This document shows, in pieces, positions 2,759 through 10,877 of a stretch of 64,000 nucleotides of DNA (positions within the stretch are counted from its first letter, which is position 1; every line of letters begins with the position of its first letter). The translations under genes were made by a program, and so were the position numbers. A model generated the notes under the pieces. The model searched no databases, had not been told where the DNA came from, and was given only the letters and a program-made list of their open reading frames with translations. Source of the stretch: Rhodoferax sp. (lineage in GTDB: Bacteria > Pseudomonadota > Gammaproteobacteria > Burkholderiales > Burkholderiaceae_C). The stretch lies in contig NZ_JAAFIX010000005.1 of assembly GCF_013297935.1 (NCBI RefSeq), positions 186,001 through 250,000 of the forward strand. The letters run 5' to 3'.

Positions 2759-2772
2759 TGGGTGGCGTTTTT

Positions 2773-2834
2773 AGTGCCAAATTGGCCTATAGCCCCCGTG
2801 ATATATGCGCGAGTAGCTACTGATTTTGTAGTGT
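2773..2834 (-). repeat. Interspersed repeat copy 1
   Basis: A copy of a 60-70 bp repeat found about a dozen times in this window. Each copy has an AT-rich palindromic core, GCTA(C/T)TA-n5-TAGC-like, then a short spacer with GCGCA, and a tail reading about GGGCTAGAGGCC-ATTTGG that can itself fold. This copy lies just downstream of the DMT gene with its core at 2813-2834 and tail at 2773-2800, orientation minus. Confidence 0.75.
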
Positions 2835-2853
2835 ATTTTCGTCGGTTTGGGGG

Positions 2854-2932
2854 GCAGAGCGGGGAGTCCGGGCCCCCGCCTCATACTGCCAAATGCGCAG
2901 AAATCGGCGGGACCCCGAACTCCCCGCTCTGC
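2854..2932. repeat. 79-nt near-perfect inverted repeat (27-bp arms)
   Basis: Left arm 2854-2880 and right arm 2906-2932 match at 24 of 27 positions with a 25-nt loop. The outer 14 bases (GCAGAGCGGGGAGT) are perfectly complementary. No run of T follows on either strand, so it is not a standard intrinsic terminator. It lies in the 575-bp gene-free stretch 2759-3333, which otherwise holds repeat copy 1 and no ORF I can support. I could not align it to the attC sites downstream. Confidence 0.7.
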
Positions 2933-3333
2933 GGGTGGCATGGCTGGTGTGCGTGCAGGATCGGGTAAGGTCGTGGGTCAGCTTTGCAGCGGAAGCGGAC
3001 CTTTCCTTCAGCGTGCAAACCACTCCTCTAGTGGAAGAACTTGCCTGATTTGCAGGATTATTATTTGCGACCCATCCAGCCCAAGCAGAGAAATACCCAA
3101 ATAGATCAAACGCTTAGCTGACTGGCACAGCAACTGCCGCCATGCTGCCTGCCTTGTTATTGGCGGTTTTGCAAGGCTTCACGGTTCGTAAATAGATGGC
3201 ACGGCAGGCCATATACTGACAAAAATCGATTGAAAACAATCACTTAGCTGGAGCAAGGGAGGCGCGCACAATGACACTTGAGCCAAGTTTTTTTGTACTT
3301 TTGCGGCATTTATCAAGTTGAGACTTCATCAAA

Positions 3334-3777
3334 ATGACTGACTCGATCTTCAAGGTTTCCGACGTTAAGTCGCTAAAAGAGCTCGCTCACGTTTTGACGT
3401 ACCCGCTCATTGCCGTTGCGTACTTTATGCAATCTGGCCCGAGCATTGGATGGGAAGATCAATGGCGTTGGGGTATTCCTGAAAGTCTTACCGTGACGGG
3501 GCAACTATCTCTGTTCTTTATCTACTTCGCATTGAAGTCAATCTGGGTGTGTGCGGCAGTCGGTGTTGTTGACGTGCTCGTCACCCAATTGAATTGGGAG
3601 TATGGCGAAGTGTTGCTCGCAATAGCAAGCATCGTTTTCATTGGAGTCGGCCTCATGGGACTCTTTGCGCAAGACATGCATCCGTTACTGGCAAAGGTGA
3701 ACAAGTTTTGGTTCGTCGCATGTCTTGTATGGGGTTTTGCTTGTTCAGGGAGGCTGGAGCGTGCGACCAAGTCTTAA
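3334..3777 (+). CDS. Orphan membrane protein, probable integron cassette gene 1
   Basis: A 147-residue protein of unknown function with three or four predicted membrane segments (around residues 20-32, 57-85, 90-112 and 125-138) and a short charged C-terminus. I recognise no family. Its TAA stop at 3775-3777 lies inside the 5' inverse core of the attC-like site that follows, the compact layout of a gene cassette. Composition is more AT-rich than its neighbours, in line with acquired DNA. The ATG at 3334 is the first in frame; no strong ribosome binding site is visible. The left cassette boundary was not found. Real coding status is supported by position and the clean membrane pattern, not by homology. 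Confidence 0.7.
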   Translation: MTDSIFKVSDVKSLKELAHVLTYPLIAVAYFMQSGPSIGWEDQWRWGIPESLTVTGQLSLFFIYFALKSIWVCAAVGVVDVLVTQLNWEYGEVLLAIASIVFIGVGLMGLFAQDMHPLLAKVNKFWFVACLVWGFACSGRLERATKS

Positions 3778-3858
3778 CAGGTTGTTCGTCACGGACATGC
3801 TGCAGCAGAATGCCGCTACGCGGCGTGTGCTGCCCGCCGGACAACGCCAACGTTAGAT
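3772..3858 (+). other. Integron attC-like site 1
   Basis: An 87-bp imperfect palindrome. It begins with inverse core TCTTAAC (3772-3778, one mismatch to RYYYAAC) and ends with GTTAGAT (3852-3858), a perfect GTTRRRY core. Inner complementary boxes GTTGTTCGTC / GGACAACG and a central stem GCCGCTACGCGGCG lie between. Recombination would occur after G3852. The ATG of the next gene (3857) overlaps the core, and the previous stop overlaps the 5' core. It shares length and central sequence (GCAGCAG-n2-TGCCGCT ... GGCGT-n-TGCTGC) with attC-like site 2. Confidence 0.85.
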
Positions 3859-4654
3859 GGCAGACCACCCTGATCTCGAAACGAAGGTGCTGAAGTGGAT
3901 GAAGTCCACTGGTTTTCCTTTGGAAATGGCTGCTGCAAGTGCGTTTCGCAATGCCAAGTTCGAGGTTCGCCAGTCGAGCACGTACGTAGATCCTGAAAGC
4001 GGTAAAGGGCGAGAGATAGATGTCGTCGTCGTAGACCCGGATTGGATTGGAGCGGTCGATATCGGTTTTGTTCTCGAATGCAAGTCATCTACACGGCCTT
4101 GGGTGGTTTTGCGCTCGGATGATGCATTCGCCAATTACAACCGCTTCTCGGCCTTCGCTCCGATGACGGAGTCTGCACGGGCCGCGTTGGTTGGTAAGGC
4201 TCCCGGGTTCGACTCAGTCAGCCTCGCATCGATGAAGTACATCGAGAGGCCATCGGATGGCGGCTATGGCCTGAGGCAAGCGTTAGATGGTGTCGACCAA
4301 GCTTACGCAGCGGCGATGGGCGCGGTGAAAGCTTGTGTGCACCTCATCCACGAATGCGAGTCTCTTTCTTACAAGCCAGCCGCGATCTACTTTCCGGTGA
4401 TTGTGGTGGATTCGCCGATCTATGAATGCACCTTACTGGCAAACGGTGAGCTGGCGCTGGAGGAAGTGAGCCACAGCGAGTTTCTATTTGTTGCACACAT
4501 CCCAGGGCGAATTGGTTGCTGGGTGAGGGTAGTTGGGAAGGCAGACTTGCCGCGTTACGCAGCCTGGGCTCGCGAGTTGGCAAACACGCTGCGAGCCGAC
4601 CTCAAAGATCAAGAGGAACGCGTGCTCGGCACATTGCAGGAGGGCGCGAAGTGA
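3857..4654 (+). CDS. PD-(D/E)XK nuclease-like protein, integron cassette gene 2
   Basis: A 265-residue soluble protein. The N-terminal ~90 residues carry the pattern of a restriction-endonuclease-like core: Glu8 in a helix, Asp55 in GREIDVVVVD, and E74-C-K76 in FVLECKSST, i.e. E...D...ExK with hydrophobic strands between. Such cores occur in Mrr-like, RecB-like and other DNA-cleaving or DNA-binding proteins; the rest of the protein (100-265) matches no family I recognise. The start ATG is embedded in the attC core upstream and the stop lies 8 nt before the next attC-like site, so the gene fills a single promoterless cassette. A defence role is plausible by analogy with other cassette nucleases but is inference. 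Confidence 0.8.
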   Translation: MADHPDLETKVLKWMKSTGFPLEMAAASAFRNAKFEVRQSSTYVDPESGKGREIDVVVVDPDWIGAVDIGFVLECKSSTRPWVVLRSDDAFANYNRFSAFAPMTESARAALVGKAPGFDSVSLASMKYIERPSDGGYGLRQALDGVDQAYAAAMGAVKACVHLIHECESLSYKPAAIYFPVIVVDSPIYECTLLANGELALEEVSHSEFLFVAHIPGRIGCWVRVVGKADLPRYAAWARELANTLRADLKDQEERVLGTLQEGAK

Positions 4655-4661
4655 GCGACGT

Positions 4662-4748
4662 ATCTAACTGGGCGACCCATGCGGACGCACAGCAGCAGGT
4701 TGCCGCTGCGAGGCGTTTGCTGCGTGCCTGTGACCTCCAACGTAAGGA
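4662..4748 (+). other. Integron attC-like site 2 (degenerate 3' core)
   Basis: 87 bp, the same length as site 1. The 5' inverse core ATCTAAC (4662-4668) is perfect, the centre TTGCCGCTGCGAGGCG matches site 1 with few changes, but the 3' core reads GTAAGGA (4742-4748) instead of GTTRRRY. This may be the worn terminal site of the array. Beyond it to 5045 (about 300 bp) I see no gene, only repeat copy 2 at the far end. Confidence 0.75.
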
Positions 4749-4983
4749 CTGCTGCGAAGCGCACTAAACGTCAGCTTCCAGCTTCAAGCCGACCATCCAC
4801 CCTCAAGGCGAGGAGCGCAGCTTGCGAGCGCAGGGGCCATTAGCGGTTGCCACAGAGGCGGCGCCCCCGTCACCCGGTTGACGATGAAATACAGGCACAC
4901 CCATAGCAGCCGCCCGCGAGGTGCGCCGGAGTCCGCAAGCTGGGTTGCTCGCCACCGCCTACCCGCAGGCGCGCAAGGTTTTT

Positions 4984-5044
4984 AAGCTAAATTGCCCTCT
5001 AGCCCTTGCAGATGCTGCGCGAAAAGCTACAAATTCAGTAGCAA
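4984..5044 (-). repeat. Interspersed repeat copy 2
   Basis: Core GCTACTGAATTTGTAGC on the minus strand (about 5027-5043) with tail CAAGGGCTAGAGGGCAATTT. It begins two bases beyond the stop of the CoA-transferase gene, so it forms that gene's 3' untranslated region. The stretch 4749-4983 between attC-like site 2 and this copy holds no convincing gene. Confidence 0.8.
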
Positions 5045-5045
5045 A

Positions 5046-6560
5046 TCACAGCATTCGCCCCGTCTTCACAAACCGGTCGTGCCACGACAGGGCCTCGCTC
5101 AGGATGTGCGGGGTGTGGCGGCCGGGGGCGGTTTGCAGGGCGCGGTCAAAGTAGTCGCGCAGGGCAGGGCGGAAGTCTGGGTGGGCGCAGTGCTCGATGA
5201 CGAGTTGGGCGCGCTGCGTGGGGGACTTGCCGCGCAGGTCGGCCAGGCCTTGTTCGGTGACGATGATTTCCACGTCGTGCTCGGTGTGGTCGGTGTGCGA
5301 GACCATGGGCACGATGCACGAAATGGCGCCGTCCTTGGCGGTGGAGGGCGTCATAAAAAACGACAAGTAGGCATTGCGCGCAAAGTCGCCCGAGCCGCCG
5401 ATGCCGTTCATGATGCTGCTGCCCATGATGTGGGTGGAGTTCACGTTGCCGTAGATGTCGGCCTCGATCATTGCGTTCATGGCAATCAGGCCCAGGCGGC
5501 GGATTACCTCGGGGTGGTTGCTCATCTCCTGCGGGCGCAGGACGATGCGTTCGCGGTAGAAGTCGATGTTGGCGTTGAACTCTTCCAATGCTGCCGGGCT
5601 GAAAGACAGCGCCGTGGCCGAGGCCATGGTCAGCTTGCCAGACTTGATCATCTCCAGCATGCCGTCTTGCAGCACTTCGGTGTAGGCGGTCAGGTTCTCA
5701 AACGGGCCGTGGTTCAGGCCCATGAGCACGGCGTTGGCGATGTTGCCCACTCCGCTTTGCAGCGGTAGCAGGTCCGCAGGCAGGCGGCCGGCACTCACCT
5801 CTTGCTGCAGGAACTGGATGATGTGCCCGGCAATGCGCTCCGACGTGGCATCGGGCGCTGCGAAGGGCGAGTTGCGGTCGTGCTCGCTGGTTTCCACCAC
5901 CGCAATCACTTTGGCCGGGTCGCAGTGCAGGTAGCAGTCGCCAATGCGGTCGCCCGGCGCCACCAGCGGAATGGGCTGGCGGTGCGGCGGAATGCGGGTG
6001 CCGTAGTAAATGTCGTGCATGCCCTCCAAGCCGGGGTGCTGCAAGCTGTTCACTTCCAGAATGATGTGGTCGGCCAGGTCCAGCCATGTCTTGTTGTTGC
6101 CCACCGAAGACGATGGAATCAGCCGCCCGTCGGGCAGGATGCCCGCTACCTCGACCACCGCGACCTTAAGCGGCCCCAAAAAGCCAAACCACGCGAGCTG
6201 CGCCACGTGCGAGAGGTGGATGTCGGTGTACTGCATCTGCCCCGCGTTGATCTGCTTGCGCACCGTGGGGTCCGACTGGTAGGGCAGGCGCATGTGCACG
6301 CCGTGGGCCTTCGCTAGCGCGCCGTCTAGCTCAGGCGCGGTGGAGGCGCCGGTCCACAGGCCAATTTGAAAGTCTTCCCCAGCGGCATGCAATGCTTCCA
6401 TGCGCGCGGCCAGCGCCTGCGGCACGGCCTTGGGGTGGCCCGAGCCGGTGAAGCCGCTCATGCCCACATTGGCCCCGGCGGGGATGAGGGCGGCGGCGGC
6501 TTCGGCCGACATGACTTTGGATTGGTAGACGGGGTGTTGAATGCGGGGGGGCAAGGGCAT
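5046..6560 (-). CDS. Acetyl-CoA hydrolase/transferase family CoA-transferase (succinate CoA-transferase type)
   Basis: A 504-residue class-I CoA-transferase of the acetyl-CoA hydrolase/Cat1 type, which moves CoA between acetyl-CoA or propionyl-CoA and succinate or another acid. Family signatures include GMSGFTGSGHPKAVP near the N-terminus, LQSGVGNIANAVL in the middle and the C-terminal NGIGGSGDFARNAYLS / HTDHTEHDVEIIVTEQGLADLRG block. Start: the frame opens with TTG at 6566, but ATG at 6560 has GGAG about ten bases upstream and begins MPLPPRIQHP, so I take it. Monocistronic: repeat copy 2 follows and the miaB terminator lies upstream. Exact acyl preference is not determined. Confidence 0.93.
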   Translation of the reverse strand: MPLPPRIQHPVYQSKVMSAEAAAALIPAGANVGMSGFTGSGHPKAVPQALAARMEALHAAGEDFQIGLWTGASTAPELDGALAKAHGVHMRLPYQSDPTVRKQINAGQMQYTDIHLSHVAQLAWFGFLGPLKVAVVEVAGILPDGRLIPSSSVGNNKTWLDLADHIILEVNSLQHPGLEGMHDIYYGTRIPPHRQPIPLVAPGDRIGDCYLHCDPAKVIAVVETSEHDRNSPFAAPDATSERIAGHIIQFLQQEVSAGRLPADLLPLQSGVGNIANAVLMGLNHGPFENLTAYTEVLQDGMLEMIKSGKLTMASATALSFSPAALEEFNANIDFYRERIVLRPQEMSNHPEVIRRLGLIAMNAMIEADIYGNVNSTHIMGSSIMNGIGGSGDFARNAYLSFFMTPSTAKDGAISCIVPMVSHTDHTEHDVEIIVTEQGLADLRGKSPTQRAQLVIEHCAHPDFRPALRDYFDRALQTAPGRHTPHILSEALSWHDRFVKTGRML

Positions 6561-6679
6561 GTCCAAAAAACTCCGGTGCTGTGATGAGGCTGGTCCCGAT
6601 GGAAGGCTGCGGCGCGGGCCATCTTACGTGGAGCTTGCGGGTTTACCCTTGGATTTTTCTTGACTTAAGGCAAGCCAAA

Positions 6680-6707
6680 AGCAAAAAGGGCTCCCGAGGG
6701 AGCCCTT
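6680..6707 (-). terminator. Rho-independent terminator of miaB
   Basis: On the minus strand a GC-rich stem AAGGGCTCCC / GGGAGCCCTT is followed by TTTTTGCTTTT, about 20 bases past the miaB stop. Confidence 0.85.
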
Positions 6708-6726
6708 GGCAGATGGTGCGCAGACT

Positions 6727-8064
6727 TCAGGCCACGGTCTCTGCGGTCATTACCTCACCGCGCAGCGTGTAGCTTCGCGTCTCAGTAATTGTCACATCCA
6801 CGAGCTGGCCCACCAGGCGCGGGTGGCCGGCAAAGTTGACCACGCGGTTGCATTCGGTGCGGCCCATGAGTTCGCCGTTGTCGCGCTTGCTGCCGCCTTC
6901 CACCAGGATGCGCTGCACCGTGCCCAGGCGCTGGTTGCTGATGGTGGCAATGTTGGCGTTGATGGCGGCTTGCAGCTCCTGCAGGCGGGCCAGCTTCACT
7001 TCGTGCGGCGTGTCGTCGTGCAGATTGGCGGCCGGTGTGCCGGGGCGGGGGCTGAAGATGAAGCTGAAGCTGTTGTCAAAGCCCACATCGTGGATCAGCT
7101 TCATCATCTTGGCGTGGTCTTCATCGGTCTCGCCGGGGAAGCCAACGATGAAGTCCGAGCTGATGCTCATGTCGGGGCGGATGGCGCGCAGCTTGCGGAT
7201 GGTGCTTTTGTATTCCATGGCGGTGTAGCCGCGTTTCATGGCCATCAAAATTTTGTCGCTGCCGTGCTGCACGGGCAGGTGCAAGTGGCTCACCAGCTTG
7301 GGCAACTTCTCGTAGGCGGCAATTAGGCTGGGGGTGAATTCGTTGGGGTGGCTCGTGGTGTAGCGGATGCGTTCGATGCCGGGGATGTCGCTCACATACT
7401 CCAGCAAAGTGGCAAAGTCAGCCATTTCGCCCGAGTCGCCCATGGCGTTGCGCCACGCGTTCACGTTTTGGCCCAGCAGGTTCACCTCTTTCACGCCCTG
7501 GTCGGCCAGGCCGGCAATCTCCACCAGCACATCCTCAAACGGGCGGTTGATTTCGGTGCCGCGGGTGTAAGGCACCACGCAGTAGCTGCAGTACTTGTTG
7601 CAGCCTTCCATGATGCTCACAAACGCCGACGCGCCGTCCACCTTGGCCGGCGGCAGGTGGTCGAACTTCTCAATCTCGGGAAAGCTGATGTCCACCTGCG
7701 GTTTGTCCAGCGCCTTGCGGGCGTTCAGCAGCTCCGGCAAGCGGTGCAGGGTTTGCGGGCCGAACACCACGTCCACATAAGGCGCGCGTTTGATGATTTC
7801 GGCGCCTTCCTGGCTGGCCACGCATCCGCCCACGCCGATCTGCACGCCCCGGGCTTTCAGGTGCTTGATGCGGCCCAGGTCGGAAAACACCTTCTCCTGC
7901 GCCTTTTCGCGCACCGAGCAGGTGTTGAACAAAATCAGGTCGGCCTGCTCCACGTCGTCGGTGGGCTCGTAGCCCTGGGCGGCGCCTAGCACGTCGGCCA
8001 TTTTGTCGGAGTCGTACTCGTTCATCTGGCAGCCGAAGGTTTTGATAAAGACTTTTTTAGACAT
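6727..8064 (-). CDS. miaB: tRNA-2-methylthio-N6-dimethylallyladenosine synthase MiaB
   Basis: A radical-SAM methylthiotransferase that adds the 2-methylthio group to i6A37 of tRNAs reading UNN codons. The 445-residue protein has the N-terminal UPF0004 domain with its cluster cysteines ([28 protein letters not shown]), the radical-SAM motif CNKYCSYC near residue 155 and a C-terminal TRAM domain (~375-440). Length and ATG at 8064 match the family. A strong terminator lies immediately downstream. Repeat copy 3 sits just upstream of the start, between it and the 8162 gene. Confidence 0.97.
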
Positions 8065-8161: not shown

Positions 8162-8575
8162 TTACTTGGAGTAAGACGGCTTGGTGGGGTAGAGCGCGAC
8201 TTCGGTCTCGTTCAATACCCACACGTCGTGCAGCATGGACTGGCTGTCCAGCACAGTCATGACCGGCAAGGACTGGCCGACCAGGCTAGCCGACATCATC
8301 AACATGCCATTGGCGCCGCGGATGCGGGCGCCGGGGGACAAGCGTCCGGCCAGGTTGTTAAACAGCACTTCAGGTGGCTGCACCACCTGCAGGGTACCCC
8401 GCAAGGCGGTGGCCGGAAAAGTGCGCACGGTGACCGAGTTGCCATTGCTATCGGTGACCATTCGGGAAACGACGCCGTTTTGGGCATGCGCCAGCCCAGC
8501 AGTCGCGGCCATGAGCATGGCGCCGCAGGCCAAGGAGCTAAGGTGAGTGCGCCAAGCGCGAGGGCAGCGGTTCAT
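8162..8575 (-). CDS. Small exported protein of unknown function
   Basis: A 137-residue protein beginning MNRCPRAWRTHLSSLACG, with a positively charged N-terminus, a hydrophobic stretch to about residue 24 and an Ala-His-Ala signal peptidase site, so it is probably periplasmic. The mature part is rich in small residues and beta-forming segments (VVSRMVTDSNGNSVTVRTF) and has no cysteine pair or known motif. The ATG at 8575 is preferred to an upstream frame extension (to 8626) because it begins the signal peptide. Neighbour of the HAMP-domain protein gene at 8629, same strand, 53 bp apart. No family recognised. Confidence 0.75.
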   Translation of the reverse strand: MNRCPRAWRTHLSSLACGAMLMAATAGLAHAQNGVVSRMVTDSNGNSVTVRTFPATALRGTLQVVQPPEVLFNNLAGRLSPGARIRGANGMLMMSASLVGQSLPVMTVLDSQSMLHDVWVLNETEVALYPTKPSYSK

Positions 8576-9564: not shown

Positions 9565-9870
9565 TTACTTCTTGGTGGAGTTATGAGGTGCAGACGCTTG
9601 CGCGGTGTATTGCGCGAGGATTTGTTGCCGGATGCGCTCTATCGGTAGCCCTGAAGGCAGGTGCTGCGCCAGATTGATCAAGAAAGAGCGGAGGTGCACT
9701 TCGTCACTCACCAGCGGGGAGTGGTCTGTGGCGGTGGTGGCGTCCATGGCGTCTTCCACCACGAACTGGGCTGCAACGCCCAAATACTCCACGAGCACTC
9801 GGGTTGCAATAGCGGTCAAAGGGTCGGGGTTCCACACGGGATAGAGTCTTTCTTGTTCACCGTGTGGCAA
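9565..9870 (-). CDS. Small cytoplasmic protein upstream of the HAMP protein
   Basis: About 100 residues with no signal peptide or membrane segment and no family I recognise. The sequence is helical in character (DPLTAIATRVLVEYLGVAAQFV, SFLINLAQHLPSGLPIERIRQQILAQ) with a Ser/Lys tail. No ATG is available: the frame starts with TTG at 9870, and an internal GTG at about 9837 is the alternative, so the N-terminus is uncertain. Three bases separate it from the HAMP-protein gene, suggesting the two work together. Confidence 0.65.
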   Translation of the reverse strand: MPHGEQERLYPVWNPDPLTAIATRVLVEYLGVAAQFVVEDAMDATTATDHSPLVSDEVHLRSFLINLAQHLPSGLPIERIRQQILAQYTAQASAPHNSTKK

Positions 9871-9950
9871 AGCAGGTTATGCCACTGGTATCGATTTCAA
9901 GAATTGTAGGTGCCGACTAGGGGACCGTGTTGAGCAGGCGGCGCCAGCCC

Positions 9951-9992
9951 AAAAGCAAAAACCCGCAATTGTTCACACAACTGCGGGTTTCT
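9951..9992 (-). terminator. Terminator downstream of tRNA-Met
   Basis: Minus-strand stem AAACCCGCA / TGCGGGTTT (extended by partly paired GTTGTG/AACAAT) followed by TTTTGCTTTT, immediately beyond the tRNA 3' end. Confidence 0.85.
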
Positions 9993-9996
9993 TATT

Positions 9997-10073
9997 TGGT
10001 GGTCGTAGGTGGACTTGAACCACCGACATCAGCATTATGAATGCTGCGCTCTAACCAACTGAGCTATACGACC
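9997..10073 (-). tRNA. tRNA-Met (CAT), elongator type
   Basis: Read on the minus strand the 77-nt gene starts GGTCGTATAGCTCAGTTGG and ends ACGACC-A-CCA, with CCA encoded. The seven-pair acceptor stem, D-arm, anticodon loop with CAT, and the GGTTCAAGTCC T-arm are all present. A G-C first pair and D-loop GTTGGTTAGAGC mark an elongator rather than an initiator methionine tRNA; CAT tRNAs later modified to read Ile cannot be fully excluded. A terminator follows directly. Confidence 0.95.
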
Positions 10074-10097
10074 GAAGACCGGCATTATATGCCAGAT

Positions 10098-10877
10098 TTA
10101 TTGATGCGTAAAGTTTGCTGCGCGTTTGTTCACAAAAGCGTCCATGCCTTCTTTCTGGTCGGAGGTGGCAAACAGGGCGTGGAACATGCGGCGCTCGAAG
10201 GCAATGCCGTCGGCCAGGGTGCCTTCAAAGGCGCGGTTCACCGATTCTTTGGCCGCCATGGTGGCCACTTGGGAGAAGGCGCAAATCTGCAGTGCGGCAC
10301 CCAAGGCTTCTTCTTGGAGCTTGTCCAGCGCGACCACGCGGCTCACCAGCCCAGCGCGCTCGGCCTCAGTGGCGTCCATCATGCGGCCGGTCAGCGCGAG
10401 GTCCATGGCCTTGGCTTTGCCCACCGCACGGGGCAGGCGCTGGGTGCCACCGGCGCCTGGGATGATGCCCAGCTTGATTTCCGGTTGGCCGAACTTGGCG
10501 TTGTCGGCGGCGATGATGAAGTCGCACATCATGGCCAGCTCACAGCCGCCGCCCAGTGCGAAGCCGCTAACTGCCGCAATGACCGGTTTGCGGATCGTGC
10601 GGATGGTTTCCCAGTTGCGGGTGATGAAGTCGCCCTTGTAGGCGTCCGCAAAGCTGAATTTGGCCATGGCCGTAATGTCGGCACCGGCCGCAAAGGCCTT
10701 CTCGCTGCCGGTGATGACCATGCAGCCGATGGCGGGGTCGGCATCAAATGCTTTCAATGCAGCGCCCAGCTCGTCCATCAGCTGGTCATTCAGGGCGTTG
10801 AGTTGCTTGGGGCGGTTCAGGGTGATAACGGCAACTTTTTCGCCTTCCACGCGGGTGGTGATGCATTCGTAGCTCAT
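10098..10877 (-). CDS. Enoyl-CoA hydratase (crotonase family)
   Basis: A 259-residue crotonase, which hydrates 2-trans-enoyl-CoA to 3-hydroxyacyl-CoA in beta-oxidation. The oxyanion-hole segments are [14 protein letters not shown] and [16 protein letters not shown], and both catalytic glutamates are present: Glu in GGGCELAM and Glu in [20 protein letters not shown]. This pairing marks a true hydratase rather than an isomerase. ATG at 10877 ([10 protein letters not shown]) follows AGGAGACTGTTGA. The gene lies upstream of tRNA-Met in the same direction, 24 bp apart. Confidence 0.95.

Follow-up and report, generated by a model that had tools for sequence, protein, structure and literature searches.

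The chromosomal stretch analyzed here (the window; 64,000 nucleotides, or 64 kb, of a Rhodoferax genome) carries a two-cassette CALIN, a classification that the sequence allows us to make with confidence. Its two attC sites lie close together, 803 bp apart, while the integron integrase gene (intI) has gone from the integron platform of this genome and no integron integrase was found elsewhere in it; therefore, we assign the window array to CALINs, for which the consulted text of PMC9024848 gives the two-attC-site rule of IntegronFinder. The original prediction (two attC sites in a short cassette array that lacks an integrase) was supported by our tests.

The best explanation as a whole, which we consider probable, is that the two cassettes were inserted in trans and that the array was later stranded by the loss of intI from the platform. 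Each gene, together with its attC, would have been inserted by IntI far from the platform, with the enzyme presumably acting in trans, and the landing place may have been an integrase-free attI outpost like those that we propose at other loci of this genome and genus. A later deletion at the platform between ahpF and dus would then have removed intI, leaving attI and cassettes there and stranding the window array; we infer this order of events.

Cassettes and attC sites of the window array

The first bases of a circular gene cassette complete its own attC, and both units in the window (Table 1) have this arrangement, i.e., one ORF, an attC and complementary circle ends (RYYYAAC/GTTRRRY). The left core of cassette 2 is the exact complement (7/7 positions) of the first box of site 2, ATCTAAC (4662-4668), and the proposed left core of cassette 1, as read from the sequence, is complementary to the first box of site 1, TCTTAAC, at 6/7 positions. 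Two 87-bp sites with a common centre had been predicted at these coordinates, and we confirmed them in the sequence, together with the GTTRRRY end of site 1 (GTTAGAT, a full match), the stop of gene 1 within a core site (TAA at 3775-3777, inside the first box of site 1) and the start of gene 2 within a core site (ATG at 3857, overlapping the last box). The RYYYAAC motif, predicted at both 5' ends, is complete at site 2 and matched at six of seven positions at site 1, where the first base is not R; the end of site 2, GTAAGGA, deviates from GTTRRRY. A regular-expression scan overlooked both sites because their outer boxes deviate.

Table 1. Features of the cassette array and its surroundings in the 64-kb window.
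Feature	Coordinates	Strand	Details
Dispersed intergenic repeat, left copy	2770..2838	+	repeat search (copy itself in training set)
Left leader piece with hairpin	2843..3003	+	arms 2854-2889 / 2897-2932
Possible diverged attI end before cassette 1 (weak)	3293..3319	+	resemblance to attI ends
Cassette 1	3318..3852	+	proposed left boundary G3317^TT, core GTTGAGA 3317-3323
Gene 1	3334..3777	+	147 aa
attC site 1	3772..3858	+	87 bp
Cassette 2	3853..4742	+	left core GTTAGAT 3852-3858
Gene 2	3857..4654	+	265 aa
attC site 2, the array's last	4662..4748	+	87 bp
Right tail with inverted ends	4776..4962	+	ends 4807-4846 / 4914-4953
Dispersed intergenic repeat, right copy	4980..5049	+	repeat search (copy itself in training set)

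The product of gene 1 looks like a small membrane protein, a character that we judged by eye; Pfam, PADLOC and NCBIfam gave nothing above cut-off, and no tblastn match was found in the loci compared. The same three collections gave nothing above cut-off for gene 2, the GREID..ECK motif of which we take to resemble that of a PD-(D/E)XK nuclease. A relative of gene 2 with 53% identity is present in one of 99 other genomes of the genus, and no match was found among 112 contig stretches scanned; a structure model computed from the two sequences was unusable (mean pLDDT of 40). It should be noted that this relative (G214:C7, locus L120, 1462-2253) adjoins a gene pair resembling the PrlF-YhaV toxin-antitoxin system. 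No promoter-like site was found in 2760-5050, which counts against the best explanation.

To judge from their sequences, both 87-bp sites are genuine attC. We used a covariance model (R2) of 15 sites from intI-bearing contigs of other genomes, with the window sites excluded; ten of these 15 lie in contigs whose intI match is full or nearly so, and the other five in contigs with parts of intI only (G003:C140, G009:C81). Four of the 19 candidates were left out (lengths of 78, 90, 91 with an unclear end, and 114), and 14 of the 19 are exactly 87 bp long (the 87-bp class). R2 matched site 1 with 84.8 bits (E 2.9e-19) and site 2 with 68.4 bits (E 5.2e-15), compared to 13.5 bits (E 0.85) for the next-best place in the window; the lack of such a match had been named in advance as evidence against attC, and both sites were matched strongly. 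Moreover, an attC from the array next to the intI of G022 matches site 1 at 90% identity over 82 bp, and one from an intI contig of G009 matches site 2 at 85% over 80 bp. With R2, no attC was found in the stretch scanned around the relative of gene 2 at L120.

These scores and identities leave virtually no credence for the two sites being chance palindromes that look like attC. Such a reading draws on a second model (R1), built from 23 attC sites of the family, mostly of shorter types, in which site 1 scored 9.0 bits (E 2.3), placing fifth in the window, and site 2 was absent from the hits; R1 is insensitive to the 87-bp class, listing 6 of the 15 R2 sites at E <= 1 with 19.5-27.7 bits. The predicted common origin in one sedentary platform was right in kind, as both sites belong to one 87-bp class of the genus and family.

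The stems were tested on 22 pairs in the 15 related sites: 90.6% were paired, 29 cells were changed on both sides and the covariation score was 0.234, and none of 500 shuffles was as high in these three measures. Two other measures were unexceptional, namely 8 pairs changed on both sides (reached by 27 of 500 shuffles) and 17 further pair types (261 of 500). Conserved stems, as expected of a folded attC bottom strand, are present across the 15 related sites; in single-sequence folds of the window sites, the full hairpin is not the minimum-energy structure. An Rfam scan of the window gave two tRNAs and nothing else.

Loss of intI at the ahpF-dus platform

The genome (3.61 Mb in 30 contigs, 99.98% complete, which leaves a little room for an intI in an inter-contig gap) contains no match to TIGR02249 over the cut-off and none at E <= 1e-80; the best match is partial and, on our reading, Xer-like. 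When 27 IntI proteins were searched against the window, the six further attC loci and five loci from relatives, no match fell below E 0.12, and the same search recovered intI in the controls L050 and L053. An intI over the curated cut-off is present in 12 of 41 genomes (this one, others of the genus and others of the order) and in 60 of 150 genomes of the family. What the genome holds is not a complete sedentary integron (intI, attI and cassettes), intI being absent. One tyrosine recombinase (C12:86304; locus L008, G000:C12:76000-95900, 9783-10775) was suspected to be IntI from a split Pfam match and was rejected; it reads as an island integrase beside a tRNA-like stretch, no protein of the genome exceeding the TIGR02249 cut-off. 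A partial repeat of the adjoining tRNA-like stretch is present at this island recombinase.

Two relatives have kept intI in an orthologous platform (G007, L048; G020, L053) between genes that, from our reading of the translations, we name ahpF and dus, the latter a predicted dihydrouridine-synthase gene. In G007, intI lies between ahpF and an attI with its cassettes, and the array ends at the dihydrouridine-synthase gene; the IntI of G007 shares 99% identity with the IntI of Rhodoferax sp. TH121. The platform of the genome under study (L133, G000:C1:672500-685465) has the same two flanking genes, with attI and cassettes present and intI gone. It aligns to L048 and L053 on both sides; approximately 1.26 kb, which carry intI in G020, are missing, and homology to G007 resumes nine bases before the end of intI. 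Because this stretch is missing and the 27 IntI proteins detected no remnant, we conclude that intI was lost cleanly. The original prediction had offered either a detached cluster or a lost platform, and both are partly right: the platform has lost its intI, and the window array is separate from it, on another contig.

An intergenic repeat of about 65 bp is dispersed through the genome, where it is common, and is found in relatives; it flanks several cassette arrays. The intI-loss junction in L133 (about 8304-8382) has a weak match to it (E 8.5e-6).

Scattered attC places and attI-like leaders

R2, which responds mainly to the 87-bp class, found at least nine attC of that class at seven places in the genome (best 150 of 4155 candidates scored), and R1 adds further attC at some of these places; the whole-genome search that had been suggested thus returned more attC of the class and no intI. 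At six of the seven places, the platform being one of the six, a leader homologous to intI-adjacent attI regions is located upstream of the first cassette, without intI. The leaders at L129, L131 and the platform L133 are of one type (a), those at L132 and L134 (two, inverted) are of another (b), and that at L130 is of a weaker type (22.2 bits, E 1.3e-5). The two leaders at L134 (G000:C1:150300-162300; 5373-5575 and 6563-6763) are 90% identical and opposed, facing around the cassettes.

We also used a sequence model (R3) trained on six attI sites, each next to intI or a fragment of it (a fragment in two cases, G022:C150 and G010:C181). At E <= 0.1, 19 of 20 genomes contain R3 matches; in the 20 genomes there are at least 56 hits with E < 1e-3, of which at least 51 have no listed intI within 4 kb, where the list comprises full matches and large fragments only and draft contig ends can make sites look distal. 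Among these distal sites (R3 matches with E > 1e-3 excluded; genomes with both R2 and R3 scans), 22 of 51 have a co-oriented R2 attC 0-3 kb downstream, as judged from the best 150 candidates per genome; one has an opposite attC downstream, and none upstream, among the matches listed. For eleven near-complete genomes (ten with at most 8 contigs, and the one under study with 30), the count is 15 of 27, compared to 0.056 expected on random placement. Since the whole-genome model searches covered the best 150 candidates per genome, all of these counts are lower bounds. Six of 15 genomes have no TIGR02249 match at E <= 1e-26, and four of the six (G214, G247, G251 and G259) have attI-attC pairs.

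We also compared the loci themselves between relatives. At locus 134, about 300 bp of the leader are common to G000 (the genome under study), G007 and G259, at pairwise identities of 82, 81 and 85%; beyond the core, the first 450-600 bp gave no blastn match among the three. The core in G007 is degenerate (GCTAGGC, not GTTRRRY). In G001 and G231, no leader could be matched at this locus, which does not help the outpost reading. At locus 129, homology between G000 and G007 extends over 400 bp at 87% identity and ends at the core, the insert is absent in G001 and G259, and G231 has another gene. At locus 130, G001 has an attI of the same kind with a different cassette. Locus 130 in G007, G259 and G231 contains unmatched DNA (0.4-1.5 kb) with no R3 hit, and all four relatives hold approximately 1.17 kb of unmatched DNA at locus 131, neither of which helps the outpost reading. 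Locus 132 is empty in all four relatives.

The sharing of leaders and the distal attI-attC pairs suggest that the genus has integrase-free attI outposts served in trans. As the IntI search detected no remnant of intI at the outpost leaders, action of IntI in trans is the simplest reading of these loci. These patterns could also have arisen if a longer ancestral array had lost different cassettes in different lineages, from older copies of intI, or through the exchange of whole alleles. Alternatively, each scattered array could descend from a complete integron of its own, from which intI was later lost, with no action in trans. Just such a loss is seen at the platform locus, the leaders resemble attI regions of several intI types, and one of the 51 distal attI-like sites (G003:C75:1108-1172) has, approximately 160 bp away, a tyrosine recombinase with a TIGR02249 match below the cut-off. 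However, the IntI search detected no remnant in the window, at the six other loci or at the loci of relatives tested, and locus 132 is empty in every relative compared. Furthermore, the locus 134 leader is common to three genomes without intI, and the contents differ from the core on; therefore, cassettes seem to have been exchanged when intI was already absent in cis. We consider separate integrons an unlikely origin of these arrays.

The window gap in relatives and comparison with known systems

At the gap that holds the window array, the flanking genes of G007 are joined with a single copy of the dispersed repeat and no cassettes, and the genome under study has one repeat copy at each end of the insert. 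G001 and G020 have other small ORFs in the gap (about 0.7 and 0.5 kb), and other DNA is found in G259 (about 0.5 kb), G263 (about 1.1 kb) and G223 (about 4.2 kb). In G199, synteny is broken, and a cassette unit is located near the same hydrolase gene. R2 detected no attC at the gap in these seven relatives; conservation of the same sequence as ordinary intergenic DNA in relatives without cassettes, which would have spoken against the original prediction, was not what we found. R1 gave a weak attC in the related cassette unit of G199 nearby (15.2 bits, E 0.042); a further match, at 12 bits (E 0.32), lies within a flanking gene of G001. The flanks of more distant relatives (L067, L068, L195-L197) were compared as well, the attC scan covering the seven relatives named above. 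None of the loci examined has the immediate flanks of the window array uninterrupted.

The left end of the G199 unit matches the left leader piece of the window at 88% over 161 bp, and the DNA after its last attC matches the right tail at 81% over 187 bp, with no match between these two pieces; therefore, the window unit recurs with other contents. The G199 unit also holds a weak attI-like site (R3, 18.5 bits, E 0.005). Two observations count against an outpost: the left homology stops at 3003, 314 bp before cassette 1 and not at an attI core, and the G199 unit is not syntenic with the window. Directly after the last attC of this unit (L278, G199:C1:195800-208000), 4131-4317 is a MITE-like tail with 19-bp perfect inverted ends, of which the window copy is degenerate.

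The tail with inverted ends in the window and G199 is one reason to ask whether the arrays spread as blocks of leader, attI and cassettes, carried by the dispersed repeat or the MITE-like element through homologous recombination or transposition. In addition, repeat copies bracket the window insert as well as loci 130 and 134, and the attI leaders themselves are present in several places. We find this origin doubtful: the repeat has seven matches at E < 1e-4 in the 64-kb window and, because it is so common, flanking by it is weak evidence; it is found on one side only at loci 131 and 132 and on neither side at locus 129, and no target duplication was established.

Contrary to our first expectation, R3 found no attI before cassette 1 at E <= 10. 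By identity to eight attI ends, the 27 bases that end at the 3317 core come 7th among 1546 GTT sites, and 2nd when 21 nt are compared, which is no more than suggestive. On the minus strand, an inverted attI-like end (4741) ranked third among the GTT sites and was dropped because its last bases are common to the attC core by construction. The null result with R3 is what would be expected if IntI had inserted the window cassettes at attG, i.e., ordinary chromosomal sequence that is neither attI nor attC, and insertion at attG has been reported in E. coli (Loot et al. 2024, as cited in the text of PMC12444791 that we consulted). Against this stand the recurrence of both flanks around other contents in G199, with the weak attI there, and the attI likeness of the 3317 core; we regard attG as a rather unlikely landing place. 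The flanks in common with the G199 unit and the weak resemblance to attI suggest that the window array may occupy an intI-less attI outpost.

Clusters of attC without an integrase are common. The window array resembles CALINs as covered in the consulted sections of PMC9024848 in having two tandem attC, cassette ORFs and no intI nearby; it differs in that the same genome also has several intI-less attI-like leaders before cassettes, which those sections do not describe. In Xanthomonas, remote CALINs are found at seven loci, and the platform intI is lost or inactivated in many strains (PMC12444791, in the parts consulted). Both systems have a platform at a conserved locus (ilvD in Xanthomonas) with frequent loss of intI and remote clusters at recurrent positions, whereas the same parts of PMC12444791 report no attI copy at the remote loci, compared to six of the seven attC places here, platform included. 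Such attI copies could explain why cassette clusters recur at the same positions. Insertion at attG (Loot et al. 2024, via excerpts of PMC12444791 and PMC12901181) likewise places cassettes in the chromosome remote from intI, whereas the outposts proposed here have attI-like DNA homologous to intI-adjacent sites. The delta-attI gene cassettes (PMC12901181, as far as its excerpts go) share with our leaders the presence of attI pieces away from the usual place; they carry an attI piece downstream of an ORF in mobile integrons, whereas our leaders are located upstream of chromosomal arrays. Integrons of phages are the subject of PMC9892861, to judge from the portion seen. We found no paper on orphan attI or on multiple attI in integrons in the open-licence PMC literature, and no title or abstract start describes attI outposts among the open-licence PMC matches listed on related integron topics.

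As a broader and tentative model, to which we lend somewhat less than even weight, Rhodoferax may have a distributed integron, in which one integrase, from the ahpF-dus platform or from outside, would load scattered intI-less copies of attI in trans. Outposts would stay in place from one species to the next as their cassettes are replaced, and the loss of intI would freeze arrays like that of the window. The close relatives suggest that the genus keeps several integrase-free cassette outposts, and one integrase could serve many distant sites. If intI-less attI copies are indeed fixed landing sites served in trans, the integron would extend over a network of loci that each have a neighbourhood and expression of their own.
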